Source: Novosphingobium sp. (GTDB lineage: Bacteria; Pseudomonadota; Alphaproteobacteria; Sphingomonadales; Sphingomonadaceae). Taken from it: a stretch of DNA of 64,000 bases. The DNA is taken from the NCBI GenBank assembly GCA_016719755.1, contig JADJYM010000016.1, positions 1 through 64,000 on the forward strand, written 5' to 3'. A model generated the notes under the pieces. That model was not told the origin of the DNA. It was given only the letters and a program-made list of their open reading frames with translations, and did no database searches. Below, piece by piece: positions 14,723-35,631 of the stretch (positions within the stretch are counted from its first letter, which is position 1; each line of letters starts with the position of its first letter). A program made the position numbers and the translations under genes.

Positions 14723-14762
14723 TTGACAGTCCCGGTCCTTCATGGAAGGATTGTTCGACAAT
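14723..14762 (+). promoter_or_regulatory. Promoter with GntR-type operator (site a) before DoxX operon
   Basis: A -35-like TTGACA at 14723-14728 is followed by ATTGTTCGACAAT at 14750-14762, a near-perfect palindrome of the ATTGTCnGACAAT class found at several promoters in this window. The DoxX gene starts 13 bp later. Confidence 0.65.
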
Positions 14763-14775
14763 TAAATTCGGGAGA

Positions 14776-15426
14776 ATGGTGGTGGTTGGCAACAGCGAGG
14801 CCGGTAAAGGCTTCACGCGGCTGTGCTATGCGGCGCAGTTCTTCTTCGGCGGCTGGTTCCTGGCCCACGGGCTCAACCACTGGCTTGAATTCTTCCCCCG
14901 CCCGAGCGGCTCCTCGCCAATCAGCAAGGAACTGATCGGGGCGCTCAACCATTCGGGCATCTTCGTGATCGTCAAGGCGCTGGAAGTGGTAACCGGGGCG
15001 ATGCTGCTGGCCAACCGGGCCGTGCCGCTGGCCGCCGTGCTGGCCATGCCGGTGACGCTGTCGGTCGCGCATCTCAACATCGTCGCCAATGCCGATACCT
15101 TCGGGATGGTGGTGGGGGTGATTGCCATCGGCCTCAACGGACTGGTGCTGCTGGGCCATCTCGACCGGTTTCTCCCCATGCTGGCGATCCGCCACGGCGA
15201 TCCTTCCGGCGCGGGTCTTGCCGCACTGCGTCAGGGCTGGCCCAATGCCGAACGCGGCCCGGCGCTGAAGGGCATGACCCACCTGATCGCCATTGTGGTG
15301 GGCATTGCCGCGCCCATCGCGGTCACTTTCTGGTCGGTCCGCGATGGCGGCTTCCGCAGCAAGGAGCACTACGCGCAGGTGCCTGCACCCGCATCGCAGG
15401 CTACCCCGGCGGGAGAGCACCCATGA
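14776..15426 (+). CDS. DoxX-family membrane protein, long type
   Basis: 216 residues with four central TM helices. The first helix has FFFGGWFLAHGLNHWLEFFP near residue 23, and a KALEVVTGAMLLANRAVPLA stretch follows, both DoxX-like. DoxX proteins are quinone-linked or transport-related membrane proteins of mostly unknown role. A C-terminal TM (MTHLIAIVVGIAAPIAVTFW) is extra to the minimal fold. It is a close paralogue of the protein at 32268-32933. It opens an operon with overlapping codons at its 3' end, behind a candidate GntR operator. The precise start may be the second Val/Met; ATG 14776 has GGGAGA 8 bp upstream. Confidence 0.75.
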   Translation: MVVVGNSEAGKGFTRLCYAAQFFFGGWFLAHGLNHWLEFFPRPSGSSPISKELIGALNHSGIFVIVKALEVVTGAMLLANRAVPLAAVLAMPVTLSVAHLNIVANADTFGMVVGVIAIGLNGLVLLGHLDRFLPMLAIRHGDPSGAGLAALRQGWPNAERGPALKGMTHLIAIVVGIAAPIAVTFWSVRDGGFRSKEHYAQVPAPASQATPAGEHP

Positions 15427-15923
15427 GCCTGGACCGCTTCCTGACCCTGTCGGTCCCCGCCGTGCGCTGGCTGCTGGGAATCCAGTGCCTGCTTTCTGGG
15501 CTGAACTGGTGGTTCAAGATCCTGCCCTTTCCGAACCTGTTCGATCCACCCGGGATGCCGGTAAAATCGGCCATCGTCGGGGTGATGATCCAGTCCGGCT
15601 GGATGTTCACCGCGGCCAAGGCGGTTGAGGTGCTGCTGGGCCTGTCGCTGATCTTCAACAGGTACGTGCCGCTGATGCTGGTGGTTTCGTTCCCGGTGAT
15701 CTTCATGACCTTCATCCTCGACGCGCTGATCGGGCCGACGCTGCTGGCCTGGCTGCAGGGCACCGCGCCGATCCAGCACGTCTGGTCGAAACTGCTCGAC
15801 GCAACCTTCTTCGGCGGGGCGGTGATCGTGATGCAGGGCTACCTGATTCTGGCCTATTTCGACAGCTACCGCCCGATGCTGCGCGCCCGGGCACAACCCA
15901 CCGACTGGGAGCGCCAGCCATGA
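15423..15923 (+). CDS. DoxX-like membrane protein, short type
   Basis: 166 residues with about four TM helices: RWLLGIQCLLSGLNWWFKILPFP near residue 13, AVEVLLGLSLIFNRYVPLMLVV near 66, and a C-terminal VIVMQGYLILAYFDSYRPML. The GLNWW motif and the EVLLG helix match the DoxX-like proteins at 21194 and 37751. It overlaps the upstream DoxX gene by 4 bp (ATGA) and the downstream 52-residue gene by 4 bp, so the three are translated together. Function unknown. Confidence 0.72.
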   Translation: MSLDRFLTLSVPAVRWLLGIQCLLSGLNWWFKILPFPNLFDPPGMPVKSAIVGVMIQSGWMFTAAKAVEVLLGLSLIFNRYVPLMLVVSFPVIFMTFILDALIGPTLLAWLQGTAPIQHVWSKLLDATFFGGAVIVMQGYLILAYFDSYRPMLRARAQPTDWERQP

Positions 15924-16078
15924 AGCGCAAGGCCATGGCGGTGCTGGCCGCCGCCGCGATCCTGCTGGGAATTGCCTCGACCGGGTGGATGCTCGCCGTG
16001 GTCAACCAGTGGCTGCTGCCATGGAGCACGTTCAAGATCTTCCTGCCGGACCCCGGCTACCTCAAACCCAACCGCTGA
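15920..16078 (+). CDS. 52-residue single-TM protein coupled to DoxX
   Basis: Translates as MKRKAMAVLAAAAILLGIAS, then a WMLAVVNQWLLPW stretch, and ends DPGYLKPNR. One N-terminal membrane segment (residues 5-28) follows a short basic start, so the tail should be periplasmic. The start codon overlaps the DoxX-like stop (ATGA), and GGAGCGCC lies upstream, which supports real translation. No homology recognised. A second tiny protein follows another DoxX gene at 21661, so a small-subunit role is possible. Confidence 0.6.
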   Translation: MKRKAMAVLAAAAILLGIASTGWMLAVVNQWLLPWSTFKIFLPDPGYLKPNR

Positions 16079-16097
16079 CCCCCTGGAGGAACACGAG

Positions 16098-17391: not shown

Positions 17392-18017
17392 CGGACGAAA
17401 GACAGGCCATGAGCGCGCAGCGGATGGCCGCTTTGCTGGGCGGTGCCGCAGCGCTTGCCGCGCTGATCGTGGTGGGGGCGGTCCTTCCGGCGGAATTCAA
17501 CCGCGATCCGCTGGGGATCGGCAGGGCGACCGGCATTGCCGCGCTGTGGGCACCGGACGAGGTCAGGATCGATCCCGCGGCCGGTCAGTTGCCCCCCGCC
17601 TCAGTCCAGCGCGGCGCGATCCGCACACTGGAGATCGAAATTCCGCTTGGGGCCGGCGGCGATCCCGCCGGCAAGGACCAGCTGGAATACAAGGTCCGCC
17701 TGCCGCGCGGCGGCGCCATGCTCTATTCGTGGCAGGCCGAAGGCGCCAAGGCAGCGGACGAGTTCTATGCCGAATTCCACGGCCACACCCTGGCCGAGGG
17801 CGACAAGATGACCGTTGCCGAATACCGCAAGGAGTCCGAGACCGCGAACAGCGGCGCCCTGACCGCGGCGTTTGACGGGATCCATGGCTGGTACTTCCTC
17901 AACACCTCCGAACGGCCGGTGAAGGTGCGCCTGAAGGTAACCGGCTTCTTCGAACCGGTCCCGCCGGGCGCGCCCGGAAACGAGGCCGGCCTCACCGCAC
18001 GGCTCGGCAGTTTCTAG
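17388..18017 (+). CDS. Membrane-anchored periplasmic protein beside HupE-like gene
   Basis: 209 residues. An N-terminal TM (AALLGGAAALAALIVVGAVL, about 12-31) anchors a beta-rich periplasmic domain with IRTLEIEIPLGAGG, DQLEYKVRLPRGGAMLYSW and GIHGWYFLNTSERPVKVRLKV. These match proteins usually labelled transmembrane anchor protein next to HupE/UreJ genes. No catalytic motif is visible. ATG 17388 overlaps the HupE-like stop. It converges with the cytochrome gene and the two stop codons overlap by 4 bp. Confidence 0.62.
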   Translation: MTDERQAMSAQRMAALLGGAAALAALIVVGAVLPAEFNRDPLGIGRATGIAALWAPDEVRIDPAAGQLPPASVQRGAIRTLEIEIPLGAGGDPAGKDQLEYKVRLPRGGAMLYSWQAEGAKAADEFYAEFHGHTLAEGDKMTVAEYRKESETANSGALTAAFDGIHGWYFLNTSERPVKVRLKVTGFFEPVPPGAPGNEAGLTARLGSF

Positions 18018-18748
18018 AAGTCGAGGCTGGCGGCCCTGCCGTAGACGTAGATGCTGACATCGGCGATCTGCCGGTCGCTCAGCGTGCCGGTAAAGGCCGG
18101 CATCGCCGCCGCGCGGCCTTGCGCGATGCTGGCGCGGATTGCCGCGCGGTCCGTGCCGTAAAGCCAGGTCTGCGGGCGGGTAAGATCCGGCGCACCGATC
18201 GAATTGTCGCCCTTGCCGTCGCTGGCGTGGCAATCGAAGCAGGTCGCCTTGCCGCCATAGAGATGCTGGCCGCGCAGCGCGGCGGCGCGGTCAACCGGCT
18301 GCCCGGCCAGATGCAGGACATATTCGGTCACGTCATCAAGCGCCCGTTCGTCCAGGCCTTCGGACTTGGCGGCAATCGCGCTCCAGGCGGGCATGACAGA
18401 GGCCATCCGCGCCTGGGCATGGCCGCTGCGGATGCCGAAGCGGACGCTGGCTTCAACGTCGCTGGGCCGCATCCGGAAGCTTTCCATATCCTCGCCGCCG
18501 AATCGCCAGTAATCATCGGTAAGGTCGGGAACCTGCAATCCGGAGGCCCCCTTCAGGTCCGCGCCGTGGCAACTGGCGCAGTTGGCCGCGTAAACCTGCG
18601 CGCCCCGCGCCTCGGCGGCGGCGCGCAGGGCGCCGTCGGCCAGGACCTCGTCGCTGGTCGGCCCCGGCCCCGCATCGGCCACGGCGAGCGTGACACCGAA
18701 TACGGCGCTGGCAAGGCCGGTCAGCAGCGCGATGCGGGCATTCGCCAT
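18014..18748 (-). CDS. Periplasmic diheme cytochrome c, CcoP-like
   Basis: From ATG 18748 (MANARIALLTGLASAVFG, signal peptide to ADA) about 244 residues with two heme sites, CASCHG near 76 and CFDCHA near 183. Segments such as LTDDYWRFGGEDMES, HLYGGKATCFDC, PDLTRPQTWLYGTDRAAI and MPAFTGTLSDRQIADVSIYVY strongly resemble the CcoP subunit of cbb3 oxidase. No CcoN or CcoO is nearby, so it is probably a soluble electron carrier. It is last in a minus-strand set with DUF6644- and DUF6152-like genes, suggesting electrons flow from those membrane proteins through it. Confidence 0.85.
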   Translation of the reverse strand: MANARIALLTGLASAVFGVTLAVADAGPGPTSDEVLADGALRAAAEARGAQVYAANCASCHGADLKGASGLQVPDLTDDYWRFGGEDMESFRMRPSDVEASVRFGIRSGHAQARMASVMPAWSAIAAKSEGLDERALDDVTEYVLHLAGQPVDRAAALRGQHLYGGKATCFDCHASDGKGDNSIGAPDLTRPQTWLYGTDRAAIRASIAQGRAAAMPAFTGTLSDRQIADVSIYVYGRAASLDF

Positions 18749-18764
18749 GGTCGGCACTCCCTTC

Positions 18765-19271
18765 TCAGCTCGCGGTTTCGAAGATCTCGGGATAGGCAAT
18801 CAGACGCCCCGCGAAGATCGTCAGCGTCCACAGTGCGATCGACAGCGCGGCCGAAATCCGCGCGGCGGTGGGCGGGGTCACATCCCGGTCCCAAAGGTGC
18901 ATCCCGTTCGACACCCGGAACGTGAAGAACAGCATATTAACCCCCGCGACCGCGATCAGCGCGATCTTGGCGATGAAGATCGGGCTGTTGATCGTGTCGA
19001 TGGCATAGGCCGCGAACAGGCTGAGCCCCGACAGCACGATCAGCGCAAAGCCGATCCAGGTCGCCCGCAACAGGTAGCCTCCGGACAGGGCACCGGCGGG
19101 GATGTGCCGCGCGATGCCGATAAAGCGCAGGTCGGCCAGCAGGATCGATCCGAACAGCAGGGTGATGCCAAACAGGTGAACGGTTTCACCGATCGGATAG
19201 CCCCATAGGGAATCCCGCATCATCTCGGCGTAGGACGTGTTGTAGAGCCAGTCCAGAATATTGTAAAACAT
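18765..19271 (-). CDS. DUF6644-like four-TM membrane protein (A)
   Basis: 168 residues with four TM helices. Histidines at the membrane face, H32 in GETVHLFGITLLFG and H56 in FIGIARHIPAG, correspond to the positions of histidines in the next protein and could ligate heme, but this is inference. WIGFALIVLSGLSLF and the C-terminal LWTLTIFAGRLIAYPE repeat family features. Sits between the cytochrome and its paralogue, 12 bp from the latter. DUF6644 proteins have no assigned role. Confidence 0.65.
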   Translation of the reverse strand: MFYNILDWLYNTSYAEMMRDSLWGYPIGETVHLFGITLLFGSILLADLRFIGIARHIPAGALSGGYLLRATWIGFALIVLSGLSLFAAYAIDTINSPIFIAKIALIAVAGVNMLFFTFRVSNGMHLWDRDVTPPTAARISAALSIALWTLTIFAGRLIAYPEIFETAS

Positions 19272-20285: not shown

Positions 20286-21080
20286 TCATTCCTCGATCTT
20301 GAGTTCGGCCTTGCGAACCGCGATGTGGTCGTCCCACAGCGAGCTGCTGCAATTGTAGCCGCCGGGCACGACACCCGGCGCAGAGCGTTTGTAGACCTGG
20401 TGTGCGCGGGCCGGTCCGACGAAGATTTCCGGATCCTCGACCGTGATGTCGACTTCCAGGACCTGGCCGAATTCGGGATGCTGGCCCAGCTGCCAGCGTT
20501 CGGTGATTTTCGCCTCCTCGGTGCGCTGCATCACGCCGAAGGTATTGAGCACGGGCAGGCCCGTGGTTTCGACCACCAGCGTCTGGCCCTCCCATCGCCC
20601 GGTCGACCAGCCGCTGGGCGAAGGGCCGAAGTCATCGGGCTTCGCGGTCCCGTCGAGCCGGATCTGGCGGAACTGGTCATAGAGTTCGAACACCATGAAG
20701 ATCCGGTCGGGATACTGGACGATTTCGGTGGGATAGTTCCGCGCCCGGCCCAGCATGGTCCAGGGCATGCCCTTGATCAGGCAGACCTTGGCGGGATCGT
20801 CGCGCACCGGATCGGCCAGCTTGCGGAACAGGTCGGCGCGGGCCTGCGCCTCGGGCGTCATTTTGCCCGCCACTTCGGGCAGAACGACCAGTTCAAGCTT
20901 TGCCGTTTCCCACACGCCGGAAAAATCGACCGGCCCGGCGTTCAGCATATTGGCGCGCAGCTGGCTGGCCGGGGCTGGTGCGGCAGCGGGGACGGGATCG
21001 GCCGCCGCAGCCAGAGCGGGCGCCGCGAGAACCGCCGAAAGGGCTCCAATTATTGTCCAACAAAAATTCGTTCGAATCAC
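20286..21080 (-). CDS. Secreted PDFxGVW-type protein (A)
   Basis: About 264 residues from GTG 21080, chosen because GAGGAG lies 8 bp upstream; the GTG at 21089 is too close to that site. Signal peptide MIRTNFCWTIIGALSAVLAA to APALA. The mature chain contains VDFSGVWETAKLELVVLPE, CLIKGMPWTMLGRARNYPTE, IVQYPDRIFMVFELYDQFRQ and a cysteine-bearing GGYNCSSSLWDDH end. It is a paralogue of the lipoprotein at 23259. The family is widespread in sphingomonads and soil bacteria with unknown function. First gene of a minus-strand set running to the cytochrome. Confidence 0.65.
   Translation of the reverse strand: MIRTNFCWTIIGALSAVLAAPALAAAADPVPAAAPAPASQLRANMLNAGPVDFSGVWETAKLELVVLPEVAGKMTPEAQARADLFRKLADPVRDDPAKVCLIKGMPWTMLGRARNYPTEIVQYPDRIFMVFELYDQFRQIRLDGTAKPDDFGPSPSGWSTGRWEGQTLVVETTGLPVLNTFGVMQRTEEAKITERWQLGQHPEFGQVLEVDITVEDPEIFVGPARAHQVYKRSAPGVVPGGYNCSSSLWDDHIAVRKAELKIEE
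21052..21064. promoter_or_regulatory. Possible GntR-type operator (site b) inside a coding start
   Basis: ATTGTCCAACAAA matches the palindrome at 11 of 12 informative positions if the central G-to-A change seen also at 27942 is allowed. It lies in codons 6-10 of the minus-strand gene, so it could be chance. Confidence 0.35.
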
Positions 21081-21193
21081 AGATAACACTCCTCAGCTCT
21101 CGACAAGCTTTAATTCATTGGCGTAGGAACCCGGATGGAACCGGAGCCTGGCGCACAGCCCAGATCCGGCCCCAAGGATGGGAGACAAGGGTT

Positions 21194-23219: not shown

Positions 23220-23232
23220 ATTGTTAGACAAT
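23220..23232. promoter_or_regulatory. GntR-type operator (site c)
   Basis: ATTGTTAGACAAT, palindromic except for the center, 26 bp before the start of the lipoprotein gene. Its flanks (AGG before, T after) match those of site a at 14750. Confidence 0.68.
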
Positions 23233-23258: not shown

Positions 23259-24050
23259 ATGCAATATCTCGTCCGAACCACCCTGGCCCTGTCGCTGCTG
23301 ACCGCCTGCACGACCGCACAGGGCCAGCAGCCAGCGCAGAATTTCGCGCCTGTTGCCGCTCAATCCGTGCCCGAGGTGCCTCGCAAGAACGACAAGCCGG
23401 ACTTCAACGGCGTTTGGGTCATGGCGTCCTACGATCTGGTCTGGCTGCCGCAGGAGCACGATCCACCCTACACCCCCGAGATCAAGGCGGAAATGGAGCG
23501 CTTCCGCACCCGGTTCGATCCCAAGGTGGACGATCCGGCCCAGCTGTGCGTCCGCATGGGCATGCCCTGGCGGATGCTCAACCGCGCGCGCGACTATCCG
23601 GTGGAGATCTACCAGAACCCCGACCGGATCATCATGCTGTTCGAAGGGCACGACGATTATCGCAGCATCCGGCTTGACCGCACCACCGTGCCGGAAAACC
23701 TGCCGGCGCTGGGCAACGGCTGGTCGAACGCGAAGTGGGATGGCGACACCCTGGTCATCACCACGTCGAACCTCACCGGGCGCAGCACCATCAACCCGCT
23801 GCAGCGCTCCGAATCGGCGGAAATCACCGAACGCTGGACGCTGAAGAAGCATCCGGAGTTCGGCGATGTGGTCGATATCGACATCACGATGACTGACCCG
23901 GAGCGCTACACTGCCCCGATCAAGGCCCGCAACGTCTACAAGCGCGCCGCGCCCGGGATCGAGGTTGGCGGCTATAACTGCGCCGACGCGCTCTGGGAGG
24001 AATACCTGGTCAAGCGCGAGGCGGAAATCGCCGCGAAGAAGCACAAGTAG
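23259..24050 (+). CDS. PDFxGVW-type lipoprotein (B)
   Basis: 263 residues from ATG 23259 with GGGAG upstream. N-terminus MQYLVRTTLALSLLTACTTA has an LTAC lipobox, so lipidated at Cys17. Mature chain contains DKPDFNGVWVMASYDLVWLP, RMGMPWRMLNRARDYPVEIY, NPDRIIMLFEGHDDYRSIRL and GGYNCADALWEEYLV. Clear paralogue of 20286-21080, including the shared cysteine. Directly under site c and ended by a strong terminator, so a monocistronic, probably GntR-controlled gene. Function unknown; localization at the outer or inner membrane is likely. Confidence 0.68.
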   Translation: MQYLVRTTLALSLLTACTTAQGQQPAQNFAPVAAQSVPEVPRKNDKPDFNGVWVMASYDLVWLPQEHDPPYTPEIKAEMERFRTRFDPKVDDPAQLCVRMGMPWRMLNRARDYPVEIYQNPDRIIMLFEGHDDYRSIRLDRTTVPENLPALGNGWSNAKWDGDTLVITTSNLTGRSTINPLQRSESAEITERWTLKKHPEFGDVVDIDITMTDPERYTAPIKARNVYKRAAPGIEVGGYNCADALWEEYLVKREAEIAAKKHK

Positions 24051-24179: not shown

Positions 24180-26651
24180 TCAGAAGCTGTAGCTGACTTC
24201 CACCCCGAATTCGCGCGGGCGGCCGATGTCGAGCATCGTGAAGCCGAACACGCGGTCATGCGGCACGCCGGTGACGCCCGGAGTCGGCTTGCTGGTCGGA
24301 CCGCCCGGATCGAACCCGCCGGTCAGGTAGTATTCGTTGGTCAGGTTGTTGCCGAACACCGAAACCTTGAGCTTGTCGTTCGAGGTCAGGGTGATGCGCC
24401 CGTTGAGCAGGCCATAGGACGGCAGGATCACCATGTTGGTGGGGTTGGGATAGCTCGCCTGGCTGTCCTTCCAGCCATAGTTGAGATCGAAGCCCAGGCT
24501 GGAGCTGTCCGATACCTTCAGTTCGTAGCTCGCGCCCAGCGAATAGGACCACTTCGGGCTGCGGAAGAAGGGCACGTCCGGCGTCAGCGCGATCTTGCCC
24601 GACAGGCCGTTGTAATTGCCATCGTACTTGGCATCGACATAGCCCAGGTTGGCGCGCAGGACGAGGCCATCGACCGGGGCGGCGAGGAATTCGGCCTCGA
24701 TGCCCTTGACGGTGGAATCGCCGTTGATGGTGTACTGCAGCGGCGGCGGACCGACATCGATCAGCTGGATCTGCTGGTCCTTGTACTTGGTCAGGAAGCC
24801 GGTGACGTTGAAGCGGACACGGCGATCGAACAGATCGGTGCGGATGCCCGCTTCATAGGTCCACAGGTTCTCTTCCTGGAATTCGGCCAGGCCGCAGTTG
24901 GCGAACGGCGAGCGATAGCAGCGGGTCTGGACCGTGTCGTTGAAACCGCCGCCCTTGTAGCCCTTGGCCGCCGAGATGTAGGTCATGATCTCGGGCGACC
25001 AGCGATAGTCGATGCCGATGCGCGGCGAGAGGTTGGACCAGCTGCCGCTGACCCCCTGGCGCCGCGCGGTCGAAACCGAGCCTGCCGGGCAGGAGGCCGG
25101 GGTGCCGACCGCCGCAACCACCGCACCGCCAGCAACGCATTCCTGGCCGCGCCCGTCGCGCAGCGAGGAGAAGTCTTTGGTATCCTTCGACCAGCGCAGA
25201 CCCAGCGTCACGCTGAGTGCGTCGGTAACGCTGTAGGTGCCCTGGGCAAAGGCCGCGTAGCTCTTGGTCACGATGTTCTTGTTTTCGAGCGTACCAAGCC
25301 CGAAATCGCCCAGGATCGCACTGTCGGCGCCCGCCGAGGGATCGAAGCGGCGGCGATCGTCGTTGGCGCTGTCCCAGTAATAGAACAGGCCGGCCACCCA
25401 CTTCAGGCGGTCGTTGAAGGCCGTCCCGCTGAGCTGGAATTCCTGGGTGAAGTATTCGATGTCGATCTGTTCGTTGAGCTGGACCAGGGGGATCGGGGTG
25501 CGATCCCAGTCCTGGGCCTGGAACTGGCTCATGTCGCGGTAGCCGGTCAGCGATTTCAGCGTGATGTCGTCGGTCAGATCGAACGCGATCGTGCCCGACA
25601 GGCCATAGCTCTTGAAGCGGTTGATGTCCGGCACCAGGCCGCCGTAGACCTCGTAGCGACCGGAGATCTGGTTGGTGTAAAAGGCGAAGTCCTGCGCGGC
25701 GTTGGTGTAGCCGGAGACTGAAACCGACGCCGGCGCGAGCTTGCGCATGCCATTGTAGGCAGTGGGGCTGGCCGGCGGATCGCCAGCGACCGCCACTCCA
25801 TAGAGTGCGGCCGTATAGAGATCGTTGGGCGAGAAATTGACCGCGAGGGTCGGCTGGCCGTTATCCGAGGTGCGGATCAGGTCGGCGGTCAGGTTCACTT
25901 CCAGCCGGTCTGTCGCCTGCCAGCGCAGCTGCCCGCGAAGAGTGGTCGAATCCCCGCCGCCGACATTGGTATCGTCGATGATCCGGTGGATGTAGCCATC
26001 GCGGCTCTTCTTCGCGGCGGAAAGGCGCACAGCGATCGTATCGGTCACCGGAATGTTGAGCACGCCGGAAATTTCATAGCGGTCGCGCGAGCCGCCCAGC
26101 GCCTTGACCGAGCCTTCGAACCGGTCGACCGGCTGCTTGGAAACATAGCGGATCGCGCCGCCCGCGGTGTTGCGGCCGAACAGCGTACCCTGCGGACCGC
26201 GCAGCACTTCCACGCGCTGGACATCGAGCAGGTCGAGCAGCGCGCCGTTGGGGCGGGCGAACAGGATGTCGTCGACATAGATGCCGACGGCGCTTTCCTG
26301 GGTGATGAAGCCCGAGGGCGCGCCGCCGATGCCGCGGATCGCGAAGTTGGCGATGGCGCTGCCCTGACCGGCGGTTCCGCCGATCGAGACGTTGGGAATG
26401 AAGGTGTCGAAGCTGCCGAGGCTGTCAGTGCCCTGCGCGGCAAGCTGGCCCGCATCAACCGCAACGATCGACAGCGGCGTATCCTGCAGGTTCTGCTCAT
26501 AGCGCTGCGCGGTAACGGTGATGTCCTGGATGCCGCCCTGATCTTCCTGCGAAGCGGCGTCCTGGGCCTGGGCTGCGGAGGCCAGCCCGGCGAGGGCCAG
26601 CGCGGCGGCGCTCAGCCCGTGGCGGATGGCGCTGCGGTTAGAGTATGACAT
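24180..26651 (-). CDS. TonB-dependent outer membrane receptor
   Basis: 823 residues from ATG 26651 (MSYSNRSAIRHGLSAAALAL), preferred because GGGAGG lies 8 bp upstream; the ATG two codons earlier is too close. Signal peptide ends at AQAQ. Plug domain reads ITVTAQRYEQNLQDTPLSIV, SIGGTAGQGSAIANFAIRGIGG, VEVLRGPQGTLFGRNTAGGAI; the barrel ends FGFTMLDIGRPREFGVEVSYSF with terminal Phe. This is the usual sphingomonad receptor for hydrophobic or aromatic compounds, not a siderophore type with a clear signature. Two GntR-type operators sit in its promoter, so it is probably the induced uptake route for the substrate of this cluster. Confidence 0.92.
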   Translation of the reverse strand: MSYSNRSAIRHGLSAAALALAGLASAAQAQDAASQEDQGGIQDITVTAQRYEQNLQDTPLSIVAVDAGQLAAQGTDSLGSFDTFIPNVSIGGTAGQGSAIANFAIRGIGGAPSGFITQESAVGIYVDDILFARPNGALLDLLDVQRVEVLRGPQGTLFGRNTAGGAIRYVSKQPVDRFEGSVKALGGSRDRYEISGVLNIPVTDTIAVRLSAAKKSRDGYIHRIIDDTNVGGGDSTTLRGQLRWQATDRLEVNLTADLIRTSDNGQPTLAVNFSPNDLYTAALYGVAVAGDPPASPTAYNGMRKLAPASVSVSGYTNAAQDFAFYTNQISGRYEVYGGLVPDINRFKSYGLSGTIAFDLTDDITLKSLTGYRDMSQFQAQDWDRTPIPLVQLNEQIDIEYFTQEFQLSGTAFNDRLKWVAGLFYYWDSANDDRRRFDPSAGADSAILGDFGLGTLENKNIVTKSYAAFAQGTYSVTDALSVTLGLRWSKDTKDFSSLRDGRGQECVAGGAVVAAVGTPASCPAGSVSTARRQGVSGSWSNLSPRIGIDYRWSPEIMTYISAAKGYKGGGFNDTVQTRCYRSPFANCGLAEFQEENLWTYEAGIRTDLFDRRVRFNVTGFLTKYKDQQIQLIDVGPPPLQYTINGDSTVKGIEAEFLAAPVDGLVLRANLGYVDAKYDGNYNGLSGKIALTPDVPFFRSPKWSYSLGASYELKVSDSSSLGFDLNYGWKDSQASYPNPTNMVILPSYGLLNGRITLTSNDKLKVSVFGNNLTNEYYLTGGFDPGGPTSKPTPGVTGVPHDRVFGFTMLDIGRPREFGVEVSYSF

Positions 26652-26788
26652 TGACATTTCCTCCCTCGATCCCTGCTTGGTTCTGCGGCTGGTTCGGGTG
26701 CCGGAAACCGGCAAAATGACCTGCCCGGCTTTCACCGGGCCTCCGGCATGGATCTGCCGGACTTGTCCCCACCCAACCTGACAGAACG

Positions 26789-26847
26789 TTTGTCAGACGA
26801 TTTGCTCTCTTGAGACACCAATATCGTCCGACGATCCTGTTCGTCAA
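26789..26847 (-). promoter_or_regulatory. TonB receptor promoter with two GntR-type operators (d1, d2)
   Basis: Minus-strand -35 TTGACG (26842-26847), 18-bp spacer, -10 TATTGG (26818-26823). Operator d2, ATCGTCCGACGAT at 26823-26835, fills the spacer and -10. Operator d1, TTTGTCAGACGAT at 26789-26801, lies 34 bp downstream center to center. The same geometry occurs at 35574-35631. Confidence 0.7.
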
Positions 26848-26957: not shown

Positions 26958-26970
26958 ACTGTCTGACATT
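26958..26970. promoter_or_regulatory. Weak GntR-type site (site e)
   Basis: ACTGTCTGACATT, two mismatches to the consensus, in the 363-bp gap (26652-27014) between the TonB gene and the amidohydrolase stop. The gap holds no supported gene; it is AT-rich around 26890-26990 and carries the operators and promoter described separately. Confidence 0.4.
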
Positions 26971-27014
26971 AAGCGCGTTACGACTCACCATCTTTGATTG
27001 ACAATCATGCAGGC

Positions 27015-27896
27015 CTAGCGCGGCACGCGGCCACCATAGAGTCGCGCGGCATTGTCGTGGAGCAAGGCCTGACGGGCCTGGGCATCAAGCTTCGCAACTC
27101 CGGCCCGCGCCAGATCCCACATATGGGCATAGCTGGCCCGCGACTGGCCGATGTCCGATCCCCAAATCAGGCGCTCGGTCCCGAAAATGCCGGCAATCCG
27201 CTGGACGAAGGCCGCCGGATCGGGCGACCCCTCAAGATTGATGTCGGAGAATTTCATCACCACGCCGGGATAGTCCGCCAGCCGCAGGGCCGGCGCATAG
27301 TCCTCCGCGCCGGGCGCGCGCCCCTGGCTTTCCAGCCAGCGCTGCTCGACCGTGGCCGCATGGGCGCCGCCGACATGATCAACCACCACTGTTGCCCCTG
27401 GCAGCGCGGCGATCTGGCGCTCCAGCGCGGGCAGCACCGCCTCGCGCTGGACGTGCAGCACGTGGATGCAGATCGGCAGGCCAAGCTCGGCCGCCGCCCG
27501 CCAGGCCGCGCCCGCCGCATCGGCAGCGATCCAGTCCAGCGGGGCCTGCGGGAAGCCGGGCGAGCTGTAGCGCACCCCCGCGATCCCGCGTTCGTCAACC
27601 AGCCGCCGAAGCTCGCCCGGGGTCGCGGGATCGAGCGGATCGAGCACCACGACCGTGCGGAACCGGTCCGGAAAGCGCGCCGCGCTGTCGAGCGTGTAGC
27701 TGTTGTCATAGCCGTAGACATGGGCGCGCTGCACCGCGCAGGCGCGGGCCACGCCCTGCTCGTCCATCAGCGCGACAAGCCGTTCCACGGTCATCGGATC
27801 ATCGAATTCGCCGGGCGTCAGTTCGCCGCGCAGCGGGCGCGGCGGATAGGCTTCGCGGTCAGCGCAGACGATATGGGCGTGGCTATCGAAAAACAT
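27015..27896 (-). CDS. Amidohydrolase-superfamily hydrolase, LigI-like
   Basis: 293-residue TIM-barrel hydrolase. ATG 27896 (MFFDSHAHIVCADREAYPPR) has GGAGGGAG upstream. H6 and H8 of SHAHI, ICIHVLHVQREAV near 139, VVVDHVGGAHA near 168 and the ERLIWGSDIGQSRASY end match the amidohydrolase_2 family that includes 2-pyrone-4,6-dicarboxylate lactonase and LigY-type C-C hydrolases. In this cluster it could hydrolyse a lactone or ring-cleavage product. Site f lies 46 bp upstream. Sequence alone does not fix the substrate. Confidence 0.75.
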   Translation of the reverse strand: MFFDSHAHIVCADREAYPPRPLRGELTPGEFDDPMTVERLVALMDEQGVARACAVQRAHVYGYDNSYTLDSAARFPDRFRTVVVLDPLDPATPGELRRLVDERGIAGVRYSSPGFPQAPLDWIAADAAGAAWRAAAELGLPICIHVLHVQREAVLPALERQIAALPGATVVVDHVGGAHAATVEQRWLESQGRAPGAEDYAPALRLADYPGVVMKFSDINLEGSPDPAAFVQRIAGIFGTERLIWGSDIGQSRASYAHMWDLARAGVAKLDAQARQALLHDNAARLYGGRVPR

Positions 27897-27941: not shown

Positions 27942-27954
27942 ATTGTCAAACAAT
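27942..27954. promoter_or_regulatory. GntR-type operator (site f)
   Basis: ATTGTCAAACAAT, one departure from the palindrome, upstream of the amidohydrolase and in the divergent region shared with gntR. On the minus strand a TTGACA -35-like hexamer overlaps the site. Confidence 0.65.
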
Positions 27955-28046: not shown

Positions 28047-28076
28047 TTGACCTGACCCGATTTCCTGTCCTACGAT
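28047..28076 (+). promoter_or_regulatory. gntR promoter with possible autoregulatory site
   Basis: TTGACC (28047-28052), 18-bp spacer, TACGAT (28071-28076). CCTGTCCTACGAT at 28064-28076 keeps the GTC and AC-AT core of the operator and overlaps the -10. Weaker than the other sites. Confidence 0.45.
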
Positions 28077-28117: not shown

Positions 28118-28879
28118 ATGCCGCAGCGCCCGACCCCCGAACTGGAAAGCGAACTGGCCAAGCGCTCGGTCGCGAGCCTCGCCTATGACGCCATTTCCGA
28201 ACGCATCGCCTCGGGCGAATTCGGCTCGAACGAGCGCCTTACCGAGGCGCAGCTGGTCGCCGAACTCCAGGTCAGCCGCGGCGCAGTGCGCGAAGCGATG
28301 AGCAAGCTCGCCGCCGACGGGCTGATCCAGATCGAGCTCAACAAGGGCGCCGTGGTGCGCCCGATCACCCGCAAGGACATGGCCGACTTCCTGCAGGTCC
28401 GCGCCCTGTTCGAAGGTTTCGCCGCGCGCCGGGCGGCCGAACGGATCGCCGAACCCGGCATCCGCGAGGCGATCCACGAAGTGATCGAGCAGTGCAACGA
28501 ACTGGAAGCCAATCCCAGCGCCGCAGGCATGATCGACAACGATACCGCGTTCCATTCCGCGATCATGGACATGTCGGGCAATTCGATCATGGCCGCCGAA
28601 TGGCGCCGCCTGCGCCGCTCGCGCTATCGCCTCAACTTCCTGCGCTCGCTGTCGCCCGAGGAGGTTGCGGTTTCGGCGCAGCAGCACCGCGAGACGCTCT
28701 ATGCCATTCTCGATGGCGACCCGGAACTCGCCAGCGGCTTTGCCGCCAAGCACGTGCGGCTGACCAACAGTCGCATCCAGCGCCTTTCGAACGAGGAATT
28801 CGACGCGATTTTCAACCCGCCGGGCCGCAAGCGCACCGGCGAGACCAAGCCCAGGCGGAGCAGCAAGAAGCCCGCCTGA
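28118..28879 (+). CDS. GntR-family regulator, FCD (FadR) subfamily
   Basis: 253 residues. Winged helix at about 15-83 with LTEAQLVAELQVSRGAVREA and MSKLAADGLIQIELNKGAVV. The C-terminal FCD all-helical domain has the metal/ligand set D142, H146 (NDTAFHSAI), H190 (QQHRETLY) and H212 (AKHVRL). FCD regulators usually respond to organic acids and bind TnGTnnnACnA-type palindromes, which is exactly the core of the motif repeated in this window. I infer it is the main repressor or activator of the 14.7-38.7 kb set. Confidence 0.9.
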   Translation: MPQRPTPELESELAKRSVASLAYDAISERIASGEFGSNERLTEAQLVAELQVSRGAVREAMSKLAADGLIQIELNKGAVVRPITRKDMADFLQVRALFEGFAARRAAERIAEPGIREAIHEVIEQCNELEANPSAAGMIDNDTAFHSAIMDMSGNSIMAAEWRRLRRSRYRLNFLRSLSPEEVAVSAQQHRETLYAILDGDPELASGFAAKHVRLTNSRIQRLSNEEFDAIFNPPGRKRTGETKPRRSSKKPA

Positions 28880-28957: not shown

Positions 28958-29857
28958 ATGCAGGCAAGTGACAGTGCGGTAAGGCAACTCGGCTATCTGG
29001 TATTCGAATGCGCGCCCGGCGTGCTTGAGGCGATGACCGTGGTCTACGGCGAGATCATCGGCGCGGCGGTGGAGCCGCAGGAGGGCGGCGCGGTCCACGT
29101 CCGGCTCGATGGACGGCCCTTTCGCCTCAGGCTTGAACCGGGCGAAACCAGCCGCCTCGCCGCGATCGGCTGGGAAGTTCCCGCACCAGGCTTCGACGCA
29201 CTGGTTGCCAGGGTTGCCGCAACCGGCGCGGCGCTGAGCGATCCCGGTGCCGAAGTGGCCGCCGCGCGCGGTGCGGCGCGGATCATGAGGATGAGCGATG
29301 CCGACGGCTTCGTCCACGAATTCCACGTCGACCTGCCCTTTGCCGAGGACGCCGCGCTCAAGGAAAAATTCGTCTGCGGGGATGAGGCGAACGGCACCTT
29401 TGGCCTTGGCCATATCGTCCAGATCGTCGGCGATCTGCCAGGCGCGACTGCGTTCTATACCGATGTGCTGGGCTTTGATCTCAGCGACCGGATCACCTGG
29501 CCGGCCGCCGACCTGTTCTTCCTGCATTGCAACCAGCGTCACCACACGGTCGCGCTGTCGGCCCCGGCCTTCGGGATGCCACCCGGCGCGGTGCATCACC
29601 TGATGTTCGAGGCGAAATCGCGGGATCAGGTCGATGCCGCCTATGCGAAGCTGGGCGCGCTGGGCTTTCCGGTAATCATGACCATTGGCCAGCACACCAA
29701 TGACGAGGTCTATTCGTTCTACATGGGCGCGCCCGCAGGCTACGCCATCGAATTCGGCTTTGGCGGCAAGGTGGTCGATCGCGCCAACTGGGAATACAAG
29801 ACCTTCGACGCTCCCAGCAGCTGGGGCCACGAACTGCAACTGGCGCCCCAGCCGTGA
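28958..29857 (+). CDS. Type I extradiol ring-cleavage dioxygenase (VOC family)
   Basis: 299 residues, two VOC domains as in BphC/HsaC. The C-terminal domain has the Fe(II) ligands H152 (LGHIVQIVGDLPGA), H214 (VHHLMFEAK) and E265 (YAIEFGFGG), and the catalytic H195/H196 pair in CNQRHHTVAL. So it should open a catechol-type ring next to a hydroxyl with O2. The N-terminal domain is diverged, as usual. GGAGAGG precedes ATG 28958. It begins a three-gene run with FAH and lactonase genes, overlapping the next by 4 bp. The ring substrate is unknown. Confidence 0.9.
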   Translation: MQASDSAVRQLGYLVFECAPGVLEAMTVVYGEIIGAAVEPQEGGAVHVRLDGRPFRLRLEPGETSRLAAIGWEVPAPGFDALVARVAATGAALSDPGAEVAAARGAARIMRMSDADGFVHEFHVDLPFAEDAALKEKFVCGDEANGTFGLGHIVQIVGDLPGATAFYTDVLGFDLSDRITWPAADLFFLHCNQRHHTVALSAPAFGMPPGAVHHLMFEAKSRDQVDAAYAKLGALGFPVIMTIGQHTNDEVYSFYMGAPAGYAIEFGFGGKVVDRANWEYKTFDAPSSWGHELQLAPQP

Positions 29858-30684
29858 AGCTGGTCCGGTTCGATGCGGGCACCGGCCCGCGCTGCGGCGT
29901 GATCGATGCAGCGGGCGTGCGCGAAGTGCTCTCTCCCGCCCATCCCGCCGGGGACATGGCGGCGCTGCTGGCCGCCGGGCTGGACGGGATCACGCTGACG
30001 GATGAGCGCCATGCGGAGAGCGCGGTGCGGCTGCTCGCCCCGATCGCCAATCCGCCCAAGATCCTGTGCGCCTGGGTCAATTACCCCAACCCGGCAATGG
30101 CATCGATGCCGCAGGTGCCGATCTTCTTTTCCAAGTACGCCAGCGCGATCATCGGCCCCGGTGACGCGATCGAGCTGCCCCGGATCGGGGACGAGATCGT
30201 GGTCGAGCCCGAAATCGCCGCGGTAATCGGCAAGGGCGGCAAGCACATTGCCGAAGCCGAGGCGCTGGATCATGTCGCGGGCTATACCATCGTCAACGAT
30301 GTTACCGCCTTCAGCCACCGCTTGCAGATCCTGCTCGGCTCGCAAGGCCCCTACATGATGGCAAAAAGCTTTGACACCTTCGCGCCGATGGGGCCGTGCA
30401 TTGCCACCGCCGACGAAGTGTCCGATCCGCAGGCCCTAGGCCAGCGCCACTGGGTCAACGGCCAGCTTGAAACCGACGCCCATTCCAGCGCGATGGTCTA
30501 TCCGCTGGCAAAGCTGATCTCCTATGCCTCGGACTTTTTCAGGCTCCAGCCGGGGGACGTGATCCTGTGCGGATCGCCCTTCCCGCTGGCCGGCAAACCC
30601 GGCTTCCTCCAGAGCGGCGACAGGGTGGAGATCGAGATCGAGGGCATCGGCCGGCTGGTCAACCCGGTGGTGGCGGAAGGCTGA
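29854..30684 (+). CDS. Fumarylacetoacetate hydrolase-family enzyme
   Basis: 276 residues from a GTG start that overlaps the dioxygenase stop (GTGA). FAH fold with KILCAWVNYPNPAMASMPQV, the metal-binding IVVEPEIAAVIGKGG (acidic pair), GYTIVNDVTAFSHR, and FRLQPGDVILCGSPFPLAGKPG. Members hydrate 2-hydroxypentadienoates, hydrolyse acylpyruvates or decarboxylate oxo acids. After a C-C hydrolase, hydratase of the dienoate product is the most likely job, but acylpyruvate hydrolysis is possible. Confidence 0.87.
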   Translation: MKLVRFDAGTGPRCGVIDAAGVREVLSPAHPAGDMAALLAAGLDGITLTDERHAESAVRLLAPIANPPKILCAWVNYPNPAMASMPQVPIFFSKYASAIIGPGDAIELPRIGDEIVVEPEIAAVIGKGGKHIAEAEALDHVAGYTIVNDVTAFSHRLQILLGSQGPYMMAKSFDTFAPMGPCIATADEVSDPQALGQRHWVNGQLETDAHSSAMVYPLAKLISYASDFFRLQPGDVILCGSPFPLAGKPGFLQSGDRVEIEIEGIGRLVNPVVAEG

Positions 30685-31736
30685 TGCGGGTCGCGGTCGG
30701 CACCTTTACCGACGGGTTCATGGGCGGCGCGCCGGGCGGCGGCGTCCACCTGTTCGAGCTGGACCCGGCGGAGCCTTCCGTACGCGAAGTGCAGGTGGTG
30801 GGCGGGCTCAACAGCCCGTCCTATCTGGCGCGCCACCCCCGCCTGCCGCTGCTCTATGCAGCGGAGCGCGCATGGTCGGCGCAGGACAAGTCGGAAGGCG
30901 CACTGGCGAGGCTGGCCATCGGACCTGACGGCACCTTGTCCCTGCTGGACCGCCGCCGCGCGGGCGGGGCGTTCAGCGCCCATATCGCGGTTTCGCCCGA
31001 TGGCGGCCTGTGCGCCCTTGCCAATCCGCTGGGGCCGAACATGGCGGTGTTTCCGCTTTCGGCAGAGGGCCTGCCGGGTGATCCCGCCTGCTTCGGCTTT
31101 GCCGGACAGGGCGCGCGTCCGCGCCAGTCCGCGCCGTGGCCGCACTCCTGCTGGTTCGATGCGGCGGGCAGGCGGATGTTCGTCTGCGACCTCGGGCTTG
31201 ACCGGATTTCGATCTATGACGTGGCGGCCGATGGACGCGGCGTGGCGCCCGCCGCCTTTGCCCAGGCCCAGGTCAGCTCCGGCGCGGGCGCCCGGCACAT
31301 GGCGCTGCGCGGCGACGGGCGCTTCGCCTATGTCGCCAACGAGCTGGACGGGACGATCAGCGTCTTCGCGATCGATGACGAACGCGGCACCCTGACCATC
31401 GTCCAGACAATCCCCTGCGCAGCTCAGGCCAGCCAGCCGTGCGAGATCGTCTGCGATGGGGCCGGGCGATTTCTCTACGTCACCCTGCGCGGGCCGGAAG
31501 CTGTGGCGGTCTTCGCCATCGACGCACAGGACGGCACGCTCACCCCCCGGCAGATGGCATCGTGCCTGGGCGACACTCCGCGCCACATCGCGCTGTCGCC
31601 CGATGGGCGCCTGGCCCTGGTCAGCAACCAGCTGTCGGGGCAGGTGATGGGCTTCGCGGTGGATGCAACCGGCGCACTCGCGCCGACCGGACTGGTGATC
31701 CCGGTCCCTAGCCCTGCCTGCGTGGTGTTTCTCTAG
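30684..31736 (+). CDS. Seven-bladed beta-propeller lactonase (YbhE/Pgl type)
   Basis: 350 residues starting at ATG 30684, which shares one base with the upstream stop. Beta-propeller repeats include GFMGGAPGGGVHLFELDPAE, AHIAVSPDGGLCALANPLGP, ARHMALRGDGRFAYVANELD and PRHIALSPDGRLALVSNQLS, typical of 6-phosphogluconolactonase-like and cis-cis-muconate lactonizing propellers. In this operon it may act on a lactone formed from a ring-cleavage product. No signal peptide, so cytoplasmic. Confidence 0.8.
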   Translation: MRVAVGTFTDGFMGGAPGGGVHLFELDPAEPSVREVQVVGGLNSPSYLARHPRLPLLYAAERAWSAQDKSEGALARLAIGPDGTLSLLDRRRAGGAFSAHIAVSPDGGLCALANPLGPNMAVFPLSAEGLPGDPACFGFAGQGARPRQSAPWPHSCWFDAAGRRMFVCDLGLDRISIYDVAADGRGVAPAAFAQAQVSSGAGARHMALRGDGRFAYVANELDGTISVFAIDDERGTLTIVQTIPCAAQASQPCEIVCDGAGRFLYVTLRGPEAVAVFAIDAQDGTLTPRQMASCLGDTPRHIALSPDGRLALVSNQLSGQVMGFAVDATGALAPTGLVIPVPSPACVVFL

Positions 31737-32267: not shown

Positions 32268-32933
32268 CTACGGCTGCGCCGGCTGCTCGACCGGCGCGGC
32301 GCCGGGCTCGCCCGGCTCGGGCAGGGTCGAGAGCGTCAGGTAAACCGGCAATGCGATGCCCAGGAAAATCCCGGCAAGGTGCGCCAGCAGGCCCAGCGGC
32401 GCGCGGGCGCTCGCAGAAAAGGCCCCCTCGTCCTGAGTTGCCGCCTCGGCATAAGCCTTGGTGCTGAACTTCAGCCCGGCGCGCAGGCCGACCAGGTTCG
32501 GCGCGATGTTGCCCGCCGCGAACAGCGGCAAAATCCGGTCGAGATGCCCGGCCGCGATGATCGCGTTCAGCCCCAGCACGCCGAAGAACACGAACAGCGC
32601 GTTGGCATCGCTTTCCACCGCGATGTTGAGATAGCCGATCACGATCGAGATCGGGAACGAGGCGATTGCCGCCAGCGGCACGAAGCGATTAGCCAACAGC
32701 GCAATGCCCGCCACCACTTCCACCGCCTTGACCCAGTCGAACAGCCCGCTCTTGATCAGCGCGCTGATCAGCTGGCTCGACACGCTGGCCGATCCCGGCG
32801 GCTGCGGGAAGAAATGGAACCAGTGGTTGAGCCCGTGGAACAGGAACCAGCCCCCGAAGAAGAACTGCGCACTATAGACCGTCAGCGTCCACAGACGCGC
32901 CGACGATCCCGCTTGTCCGGCATCAGACATCAA
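32268..32933 (-). CDS. DoxX-family membrane protein, long type
   Basis: 221 residues, close paralogue of 14776-15426. FFFGGWFLFHGLNHWFHFFP near residue 24, KAVEVVAGIALLANRFVPLA near 69, a C-terminal LLAHLAGIFLGIALPVYLTL helix. The downstream partner is an NTF2-like secreted protein, repeating the first cluster's order. Function unknown. Confidence 0.73.
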   Translation of the reverse strand: MMSDAGQAGSSARLWTLTVYSAQFFFGGWFLFHGLNHWFHFFPQPPGSASVSSQLISALIKSGLFDWVKAVEVVAGIALLANRFVPLAAIASFPISIVIGYLNIAVESDANALFVFFGVLGLNAIIAAGHLDRILPLFAAGNIAPNLVGLRAGLKFSTKAYAEAATQDEGAFSASARAPLGLLAHLAGIFLGIALPVYLTLSTLPEPGEPGAAPVEQPAQP

Positions 32934-34087: not shown

Positions 34088-34183
34088 GGGGGCAATCCTT
34101 TCAGGGCTCCGGACAGGGCGGCACATGGGCCGCAGAAACTAGCGCGGGACCGGCCCGGTTCAGGGGCCGGCCCGCGCCGCAGA

Positions 34184-35410
34184 TCAGACGAAGGTGTTGG
34201 TCTTGGCGGGCGGCAGGCCGAGCATCGCCCTGCCATAGTTCGGGGCCGAAAGATCATCGGTGAAGGCATAGTGCGCCGCGCCCGAATTCACGTCGCGCAT
34301 CATCCGGGCAAGCGGGCTCTTTTCATAGATGCCGCTGCCGCCCGCCGCCTCGAACAGCGAGTTGGCGGCGCCGCGCGCCTGCTGCGGCGCGGCGGCGAGG
34401 TCGCGGCGGAAGCGGGCGTGATCGAGCGGGGTCATCTCGCCAAAGCGGCCCTCGTCGATCCGGCGCGCATCGGCCAGGATCAGCCCGGTGGCCTGCTCGA
34501 TATCGAGCGCGGCATGGCTGAGACGGCCGAAGGCCTGGGCGCGACCGGCCACGATCTCGTCGTCGCAGCCCTTGAGCTTGCCCTTCATGCTCTCGATGCT
34601 GAGGTCGATCATCCCGCGCGCCACGCCCAGCGGCGCGCCGACGATGGCGAACGGCGCGAGCGCGAAATAGGGCCATTCGTAGAACGCGGCCTCCTCGGCG
34701 GCGGGGCCGACCGGCGGGCCGCCCAGATCCATCGCCAGGCTGATGCGGGCTTCTTCCACGAACAGGCCCTCGATCACGATCGAGCGGCTCTGGGTGCCGC
34801 GCATGCCCAGCACGTTCCAGTCATCAAGCTTCTCGACGCGGTCCTGCTCGATCATCGCGAAGGCCATCTGCCCGGCGTGCGGGCCGCCATCGATCACCAC
34901 GTTGATGCCGATCCACTTGGCATAGTCCACGCCGCTGCAGAACCGCCCGGCGCCGCCGGTGATGATGTAGCCGCCCTCGGTGGGCGTTGCAGTCCAGGCG
35001 TCGGACAGGCGGAACACCACCGACACGTGGTTGCGCGGATCGCCGAGGATGTCTTCCTGCACTTCGACCGGATAGCGGGTGAGCATGTGGTTGTGCCCGG
35101 TCAGCACACCGAACACCCAGGCGGTCGACCCGCAGACAGTGCCGATCTCGTTGACCACCGAGAAGAACGCCTCCCAGCCGAGCGCCGAGCCGCCATAGGC
35201 CCTGGGCGTCAGCACGCCAAACAGGCCGGCGTCTTCCAGTTCCCGGATCGATTCCGCCGCGACATTGCCCGTCCGGTCGGTTTCTGCGGCGCGCGCGGCA
35301 ATTGCGGGCAGCAGTGCCCGGACGGCGCTGACCGCTTCTTCCTTGCTGGCAAGCACCGGATAGCTGCGCGAGGCGGCGGTTTCCGCGACGACGGCATTGG
35401 CAAGACCCAC
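34184..35410 (-). CDS. Flavin-dependent hydroxylase, HsaA/acyl-CoA-dehydrogenase fold
   Basis: Oxygenase part of a two-component system using FMNH2 or FADH2. 408 residues from GTG 35410 (GAAAGGGG 7 bp upstream). Acyl-CoA dehydrogenase fold: DAGLFGVLTPRAYGGSALGW, TVCGSTAWVFGVLTGHN, WTATPTEGGYIITGGAGRFC, VLGMRGTQSRSIVIEG, and the end AHYAFTDDLSAPNYGRAML. This matches HsaA and p-hydroxyphenylacetate hydroxylase C2. It should place a hydroxyl ortho to a phenol, making the catechol for the extradiol dioxygenase. The likely flavin reductase is at 38209. Two GntR-type sites and a good promoter precede it. Confidence 0.87.
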   Translation of the reverse strand: MGLANAVVAETAASRSYPVLASKEEAVSAVRALLPAIAARAAETDRTGNVAAESIRELEDAGLFGVLTPRAYGGSALGWEAFFSVVNEIGTVCGSTAWVFGVLTGHNHMLTRYPVEVQEDILGDPRNHVSVVFRLSDAWTATPTEGGYIITGGAGRFCSGVDYAKWIGINVVIDGGPHAGQMAFAMIEQDRVEKLDDWNVLGMRGTQSRSIVIEGLFVEEARISLAMDLGGPPVGPAAEEAAFYEWPYFALAPFAIVGAPLGVARGMIDLSIESMKGKLKGCDDEIVAGRAQAFGRLSHAALDIEQATGLILADARRIDEGRFGEMTPLDHARFRRDLAAAPQQARGAANSLFEAAGGSGIYEKSPLARMMRDVNSGAAHYAFTDDLSAPNYGRAMLGLPPAKTNTFV

Positions 35411-35432
35411 GATCAATCCCCTTTCCGCATAC

Positions 35433-35495
35433 AATGGCAGACAATCGCCACTCATTTTGTCGGACGATTTACGGAGAGATTCGCCAGCTTGTCAA
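35433..35495 (-). promoter_or_regulatory. Hydroxylase promoter with GntR-type sites (g1, g2)
   Basis: Minus-strand -35 TTGACA (35490-35495), 17-bp spacer, -10 GTAAAT (35467-35472). Site g2, plus-strand TTTGTCGGACGAT at 35456-35468, touches the -10; g1, AATGGCAGACAAT at 35433-35445, is a weaker copy closer to the gene. Confidence 0.68.
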
Positions 35496-35573
35496 GCGCT
35501 CACCCCCAACATCGCCGTAAACACGCCCCAAAGTGCGTATTTACGTGCGCTTCCGAGCATGAGGCTTTTCCCG

Positions 35574-35631
35574 TTGACAGACCCTCGTGTCGGACGATAA
35601 CCGAAAAGCGATCCCAATATCGTCGGACAAA
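35574..35631 (+). promoter_or_regulatory. C-C hydrolase promoter with two GntR-type operators (h1, h2)
   Basis: -35 TTGACA (35574-35579), 16-bp spacer, -10 GATAAC (35596-35601). h1, CGTGTCGGACGAT at 35586-35598, lies in the spacer and -10; h2, ATCGTCGGACAAA at 35619-35631, lies 33 bp downstream and reaches almost to the start codon at 35637, covering the RBS. This region is divergent with the hydroxylase promoter. Confidence 0.7.

Follow-up and report, generated by a model that had tools for sequence, protein, structure and literature searches.

A conserved palindrome at eight promoters of a Novosphingobium catabolic cluster and its probable GntR/FCD regulator

The DNA analyzed here, called the window in the following, comprises 64,000 nucleotides of Novosphingobium sp. 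(assembly GCA_016719755.1, contig JADJYM010000016.1, positions 1 to 64,000). It harbors a cluster of catabolic genes around a gene for a GntR regulator with an FCD domain, and near-copies of the 13-bp palindrome ATTGTCnGACAAT (WTYGTC-N-GACRAW) at eight promoters. A sequence-only reading had proposed that these repeats define a single regulon under the FCD-type GntR protein, and this proposal is supported by the FadR-type form of the palindrome, by a site at the gntR promoter in three genomes and by distant FCD loci. The sites most probably are the operators of the GntR/FCD protein, which would govern a regulon of this single locus. The genes of the cluster are listed below; where Rhizorhabdus wittichii RW1 is named, the percentage is the identity to the protein of this strain.

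14776..15426, plus strand: DoxX-like protein, first gene of its operon (match below the curated cut-off)
20286..21089, minus strand: PDFxGVW protein; the minus strand continues with DUF6152, an open frame lacking a Pfam match, DUF6644 and cytochrome c
23259..24050, plus strand: PDFxGVW protein, 44% identical to the one at 20286
24180..26657, minus strand: TonB-dependent receptor, start at 26657 or 26651
27015..27896, minus strand: amidohydrolase 2 family enzyme, from the ATG at 27896
28118..28879, plus strand: gntR, regulator with GntR winged helix and FCD domain, 253 amino acids (aa; Pfam)
28961..29857, plus strand: extradiol dioxygenase downstream of gntR, 60% to RW1 DbfB
29854..30684, plus strand: fumarylacetoacetate hydrolase family protein, same gene run
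30567..31736, plus strand: 7-bladed lactonase family protein, start probably further in
34184..35416, minus strand: HsaA-like flavin monooxygenase (acyl-CoA dehydrogenase family; HsaA model below cut-off)
35637..36461, plus strand: meta-cleavage product (C-C) hydrolase, 79% to RW1 Swit_4895 (DxnB)
36483..37715, plus strand: Rieske oxygenase with LigXa C-terminal domain
37751..38185, plus strand: DoxX-like membrane protein (below the curated cut-off)
38209..38688, plus strand: flavin reductase family protein (NCBIfam matches below cut-offs)

Judged from the encoded families (a biphenyl-diol-type extradiol dioxygenase, a C-C hydrolase, an HsaA-like monooxygenase, a flavin reductase, a LigXa-type Rieske oxygenase, an amidohydrolase and a TonB receptor), the cluster would hydroxylate and meta-cleave the ring of a biaryl- or polycyclic-type aromatic compound. 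The NCBIfam equivalog models for these enzymes match below their cut-offs, so that the assignment is to families rather than to exact reactions.

The putative operators belong to eight transcription units, namely the DoxX-like operon, the two PDFxGVW genes and the genes of the TonB receptor, the amidohydrolase, GntR, the HsaA-like monooxygenase and the C-C hydrolase. For comparison we used a metagenome-assembled genome (MAG) of a relative, whose contig aligns to window positions 12073-37916 at about 86% DNA identity; conserved bases and flanks in the following list refer to this relative.

14682..14694: DoxX-like operon, upstream operator; 11 of 12 non-centre bases kept, flank 76% identical
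14750..14762: DoxX-like operon, operator at -10/+1
21052..21064: operator within the first codons of a PDFxGVW gene (minus strand); 13 of 13 bases identical, flank 80%
23220..23232: operator before a PDFxGVW gene
26789..26801: TonB promoter, operator 2
26823..26835: TonB promoter, operator 1, between -35 and -10; only the centre base differs
26958..26970: TonB gene, upstream operator; 12 of 12 non-centre bases kept, flank 27% identical
26993..27005: TonB gene, weaker upstream operator; 11 of 12 non-centre bases kept, flank 47%
27942..27954: amidohydrolase operator, ATTGTCAAACAAT, overlapping a -35-like TTGACA
28064..28076: gntR-promoter operator, CCTGTCCTACGAT, 17 nt downstream of the first -35 base; TGTCCTACGAT shares its position in the window, the MAG and RW1
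35433..35445: HsaA-like monooxygenase, weaker operator 2; 12 of 12 non-centre bases kept, flank also 92%
35456..35468: HsaA-like monooxygenase, operator 1, at -10/+1
35586..35598: C-C hydrolase operon, operator 1, between -35 and -10
35619..35631: C-C hydrolase operon, operator 2

The sequence-only reading had named twelve of these positions, and all twelve hold sequences as described. Eleven were recovered with at most three mismatches to ATTGTCNGACAAT; the twelfth, 28064, has four and is weak by sequence. The assignment to eight promoters and the placement of 21052 inside a coding start were borne out, and 35433 does lie upstream of its gene, given a translation start at TTG 35416 (ATG in the relative). 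Two conserved sites had been missed: 14682, and 26993 at a distance of 35 bp from 26958. A further match with at most two mismatches, at 21464, was dropped as a coding match; it falls within a DoxX-like frame, probably by chance.

The palindrome occurs in clear excess. With at most three mismatches to ATTGTCNGACAAT the window contains 21 matches, compared with a mean of 10.1 in 100 dinucleotide shuffles, none of which reached 21. At most two mismatches gave 12 matches (0.915 expected from 200 Markov simulations, maximum 5) and at most one mismatch gave three (0.075 expected, likewise from 200 simulations). A symmetrised matrix was built from 11 of the window sites, in which the GT and AC pairs, 3 nt apart, are invariant. 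Ranked with this matrix, the 14 best positions of the window, 21464 among them, all fall within 14682-35619, a ranking that is not independent of the sites from which the matrix was made.

Judged by conservation in the relative, the palindromes are under selection. Across five intergenic stretches the operators (151 bases, centre omitted) are 95.4% identical to the MAG and 798 other bases 68.0%; none of 948 circular shifts reached the operator conservation score. Of the 15 tabulated sites, which include 21464, four have another centre base, and the remaining positions differ in 7 of 180 bases; none of these seven changes affects a GT or AC pair. The sites 26958 and 26993 stand out most from their flanks, whereas 21052, 23220, 26789, 35433, 35456 and 35619 add less because their flanks are well kept too (80-92%). 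It is therefore highly improbable that the repeats are a functionless by-product of AT-rich intergenic DNA. Intergenic DNA does tend to be AT-richer and the edges of the motif are AT-rich, but the excess over both shuffles and simulations, the conservation above the intergenic background and the different behavior of matrices permuted from the same columns (see below) all contradict this explanation.

The motif is also not equally common elsewhere in the genome, a distribution that would have spoken against a local regulon. In the 3,706,358 bases searched, the strict pattern WTYGTYNRACRAW (no mismatch) occurs at 14 places, and eight of these lie in the 21 kb of window positions 14750-35631. 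Each of the remaining six lies inside an open frame: two share one TonB-dependent receptor gene, one is in a 259-aa frame without Pfam match, and three are on contig C12 in frames of 587, 322 and 94 aa. We rejected a wider regulon on this basis and kept none of the six. One of the C12 matches, at 574754, overlaps the first codons of the 94-aa frame and, by its position, may have a role at the start of this frame. The region with the three C12 matches (553000-590000) is by eye rich in transposase- and integrase-like frames, and the matches there are apparently background. A second pattern, TNGTCNGACNA, was found at 27 places, five of which fit TYGTCNGACRA; four of these five are in the window and the fifth (C16:378806) is inside a gene for a Clp-type ATPase. 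The genome pattern was chosen after the sites had been seen, and the conservation test therefore weighs more than these counts.

The 28118-28879 protein matches FCD (PF07729, 1.7e-20) and GntR (PF00392, 6.6e-15) in Pfam, both above the cut-off, and a structure model calculated from the single sequence has a helical C-terminal part (mean pLDDT, the predicted local distance difference test score, 76.7). Its residues D142, H146, H190 and H212, of which the three histidines align with histidines of 3SXY, form a set of the kind that is a metal site in FCD proteins. Twenty NCBIfam models match the protein and none of them reaches its curated cut-off. The consensus published for the FadR subfamily consists of TKGT and ACMA boxes with a GT-AC spacing of 3 nt in most groups (PMC4494728; this and the other papers are cited from excerpts) or, alternatively, of TNGTNNNACNA (PMC2230225), and the operator matrix of the window fits this GT-N3-AC palindrome. 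A site at the regulator's own gene, which is common but not obligatory among FadR/FCD regulators, is present at 28064 and kept in three genomes.

The form of the motif was further compared with all 19 FCD loci other than the window's own that one protein search returned, a minority of its matches, encoding proteins with 27-36% identity. Gene starts were estimated from the match, and the loci are mutually related and not fully independent. For eight of the 19 the highest-scoring position of the locus is upstream of gntR, where 1.66 are expected by length; the mean over 400 position-permuted palindromic matrices was 2.9, and six of the 400 reached eight. Upstream matches of at least 14 bits were found in five of the 19 loci (permuted mean 0.24), a number reached by none of the 400 matrices. 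In one distant locus (L018) gntR and a Rieske oxygenase gene diverge, and the gap between them (2152-2307) contains three TTGTnCGACA-type copies at 2183, 2224 and 2288. The four hydrolase loci examined with the matrix (L054-L057) contain no match above 10.9 bits. As the genome has five FCD matches, it is conceivable that another FCD paralogue or an unlinked regulator binds the sites, but we regard this as improbable: the four paralogue loci lack a match above 12.1 bits, and the sites cluster around gntR 28118-28879 itself.

Protein searches covered four overlapping sets: 61 relatives, the order (396 genomes), the genus (195) and the family (397); in the latter three sets only the best 6-13 candidates per genome were scored. 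Close GntR proteins were found in three genomes, namely the window's own, the MAG (G522, 96% identical protein) and G675, which we take to be RW1; a more distant one (36%) is encoded in G043, and a match in Pseudooceanicola (L046) has 27%. A tblastn search of 72,556 plasmid records yielded one record with more than 60% identity, Swit_4901 on plasmid pSWIT02 of R. wittichii RW1, which is 67% identical to the window GntR over 223 aa. This gene adjoins dbfB (Swit_4902), and dxnB (Swit_4895) lies nearby (gene names from PMC3425912); the products of both have homologues in the window cluster. The sequence TGTCCTACGAT on the gntR promoter is identical in the window, the MAG and RW1 and lies 14 nt after TTGAC in all three. 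A one-mismatch copy, ATCGTCCGACGTT, is located about 100 bp upstream of RW1 dxnA1 behind a TTGACA; counted by eye from the start of the -35 box, the distance to the operator is 13 nt at dxnA1 and 17 nt at gntR. In the same RW1 stretch (L047, 12500-16100) three IS4-family transposase genes lie between dxnA1 and gntR-dbfB, with an operator-like site kept on each side.

A looser pattern gave a modest excess in the RW1 stretch (42 matches compared with 30.8, with as many in 2 of 100 shuffles), and the whole pSWIT02 plasmid contains 17 places with at most one mismatch (reversed control 6). G675 has six strict matches, five chromosomal and one at pSWIT02:84511 between a parB-like and a hypothetical gene; among these six we found no tie to the dxn genes, the chromosomal genes not having been identified. 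According to the cited excerpts, RW1 gntR was up 3.9/7.5-fold and dbfB 2.8/7.6-fold with dibenzo-p-dioxin/dibenzofuran (PMC4911050). In PMC3425912 the plasmid dxn genes are reported as higher with dibenzofuran than in SAL and PHE cultures, values listed in a table are 4.41 for dbfB and 2.93 for dxnA1, and earlier reports on dxnA1 inducibility are cited as conflicting. Together with the sites, these reports support co-regulation of gntR and dbfB in RW1 and leave dxnA1 undecided.

A MarR-family gene (12317-12670, minus strand), which the sequence-only reading had not mentioned, is present at the edge of the cluster. It is one base out of frame in the window, through a sequencing error or decay, and open in the 86%-identical relative. 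MarR proteins likewise bind short palindromes, and this gene at the same cluster edge, with a frame open in the relative, speaks against an assignment to GntR. Nevertheless, the MarR protein is unlikely to be the owner of the sites. No copy with at most three mismatches precedes its gene (the nearest is 14682), the operators are kept although the window copy is out of frame, and the RW1 stretch, which retains the gntR operator, has 34 annotated features with no MarR gene by name. Moreover, the GT-N3-AC form is that of FadR-type regulators.

Returning to the GntR/FCD protein as the regulator, we examined the register of operators and promoters, with the start point placed by assumption 36 nt downstream of the first -35 base. 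At six promoters an operator overlaps a core promoter of the TTGAC type; the -10 boxes resemble TATAAT poorly, and the two PDFxGVW genes lack a clear -35 box. From the start of the -35 box the operators begin at +12 and +45 (hydrolase), +12 and +46 (TonB), +17 (gntR), +27 (DoxX), +27 and +50 (HsaA-like) and -5 (amidohydrolase). The inferred cover is thus -24 to -12, -19 to -7 or -9 to +3; where there is a second copy, it falls at about +9 to +26. This layout favors steric repression, with 27942 (-41 to -29) as the exception.

For binding, repression and the identity of the inducer we infer the following model. The FCD-type GntR protein would bind the 13-bp palindrome as a dimer at eight promoters including its own. 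Without substrate it would block RNA polymerase, because the operators overlap the core promoter, often with a second copy 23-35 bp from the first. An aromatic intermediate, most likely the ring-cleavage product of the DbfB-like enzyme encoded beside gntR, would bind the FCD domain and release the repressor, and the release would jointly switch on uptake (TonB), hydroxylation, ring cleavage and C-C hydrolysis. We estimate a probability of about 0.8 for this model as a whole, in which the protein would be an autoregulated repressor of the eight promoters of its own cluster. A less likely but not negligible version is that binding by GntR leads mainly to activation, or to activation at some promoters and repression at others. 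Among GntR regulators of biphenyl genes, that of strain KKS102 is a repressor and that of strain KF707 an activator (PMC10282184, excerpts). In the window 26958 and 26993 lie far upstream of the TonB gene, and the position of 27942 would also suit an activator, which counts against repression. At five of the six promoters with a recognizable -35 box, however, the operator covers the spacer, the -10 box or the inferred start, which favors blocking.

Several further results weigh against the autoregulated repressor model or the motif on which it is built. Matches to WTYGTYNRACRAW with one mismatch are common (131 places in the genome, reversed control 56), and the generic TNGTNNNACNA is not enriched, with 199 places compared with 1082 for its control, which made this loose consensus useless as a genome filter. 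In 11 of the 19 distant FCD loci the best match lies elsewhere, three of the eight upstream best matches are weak (6.9-11.0 bits), and L017, the nearest homologue of the 19 (36%), has no site before its gene. The score of 28064 (10.4 bits with its four mismatches) is no better than that of the best matches elsewhere in the window; because of this weak score, its case rests on conservation in three genomes. The RW1 stretch shows no overall excess of ATTGTCNGACAAT (11 compared with 10.2), and in the excerpts of the RNA-seq study (PMC4911050) the dxn genes were not significantly different.

Under one operator, the minus strand of 18014-21089 carries a run of genes for PDFxGVW, DUF6152, DUF6644 and cytochrome c. 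Small DoxX-like membrane proteins occur five times within 24 kb (14776-15923, about 21200-21664, 32268-32933 and 37751-38185), four of them weak in Pfam, below cut-off, and one near 21200 recognized by eye; this multiplicity is unusual for one catabolic cluster. A stretch between convergent genes, 24080-24165, contains two GC-rich hairpins that look like terminators by eye; a T-run follows one of them. As they share an operator with ring-cleavage enzymes, the uncharacterised DoxX-like, PDFxGVW, DUF6152, DUF6644 and TonB receptor genes become one testable catabolic unit. The main value of the analysis is a concrete candidate operator for the GntR regulator that adjoins the dioxin/dibenzofuran genes in RW1, a strain with conflicting reports on dxnA1 inducibility.

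Among the closest known systems, Swit_4901 of RW1 shares with the window the protein (67%), the gntR-dbfB order and the operator at the gntR promoter and its place; RW1 differs by the angular dioxygenase dxnA1A2 in the neighborhood and by the transposase genes in between. A search of the open-access literature found no description of the Swit_4901 operator or of the window operator. Compared with the upper pathway of RW1 for dibenzofuran and dioxin, the window has DbfB and DxnB homologues (60% and 79%); a close DxnA1 was not found in the window genome, where the best match is 34% over residues 34-214 of 435 (DxnA2 was not searched). We tentatively suggest, at somewhat less than even odds, that the window represents a clade of FCD repressors, hitherto undescribed, whose single operator controls sphingomonad biaryl (dibenzofuran/dioxin-like) upper pathways, and that the same operator would be the missing switch of gntR-dbfB and dxnA1A2 in RW1, partly disconnected there by insertion sequences.

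The FadR-subfamily (FCD) regulators share the domain pair and the TKGT-N3-ACMA form of the operator; the window protein differs in that no NCBIfam cut-off is reached. BphS and AphS, which control biphenyl and phenol genes, are in the cited excerpts likewise GntR-family repressors of their own cluster with multiple operators. BphS represses the biphenyl genes of KKS102 until HOPD, a biphenyl intermediate, is present (PMC10282184), and by analogy a meta-cleavage product may be the inducer in the window. The BphS motif AAATmTCGAkATTT is an even palindrome (PMC6449761), unlike the window operators of the ATTGTCnGACAAT type; this comparison was made by motif. CarR is the GntR regulator of sphingomonad carbazole genes (PMC2848856), and as in the window such GntR genes lie beside genes for an oxygenase, a meta-cleavage enzyme and a hydrolase; the carR-carAa gap of KA1 lacks a strong operator match (best 4.2 bits). 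In another sphingomonad a GntR gene is reported beside biphenyl genes (PMC5527002). Taken together, the window regulator is a new example of the catabolic GntR regulators like BphS and CarR.

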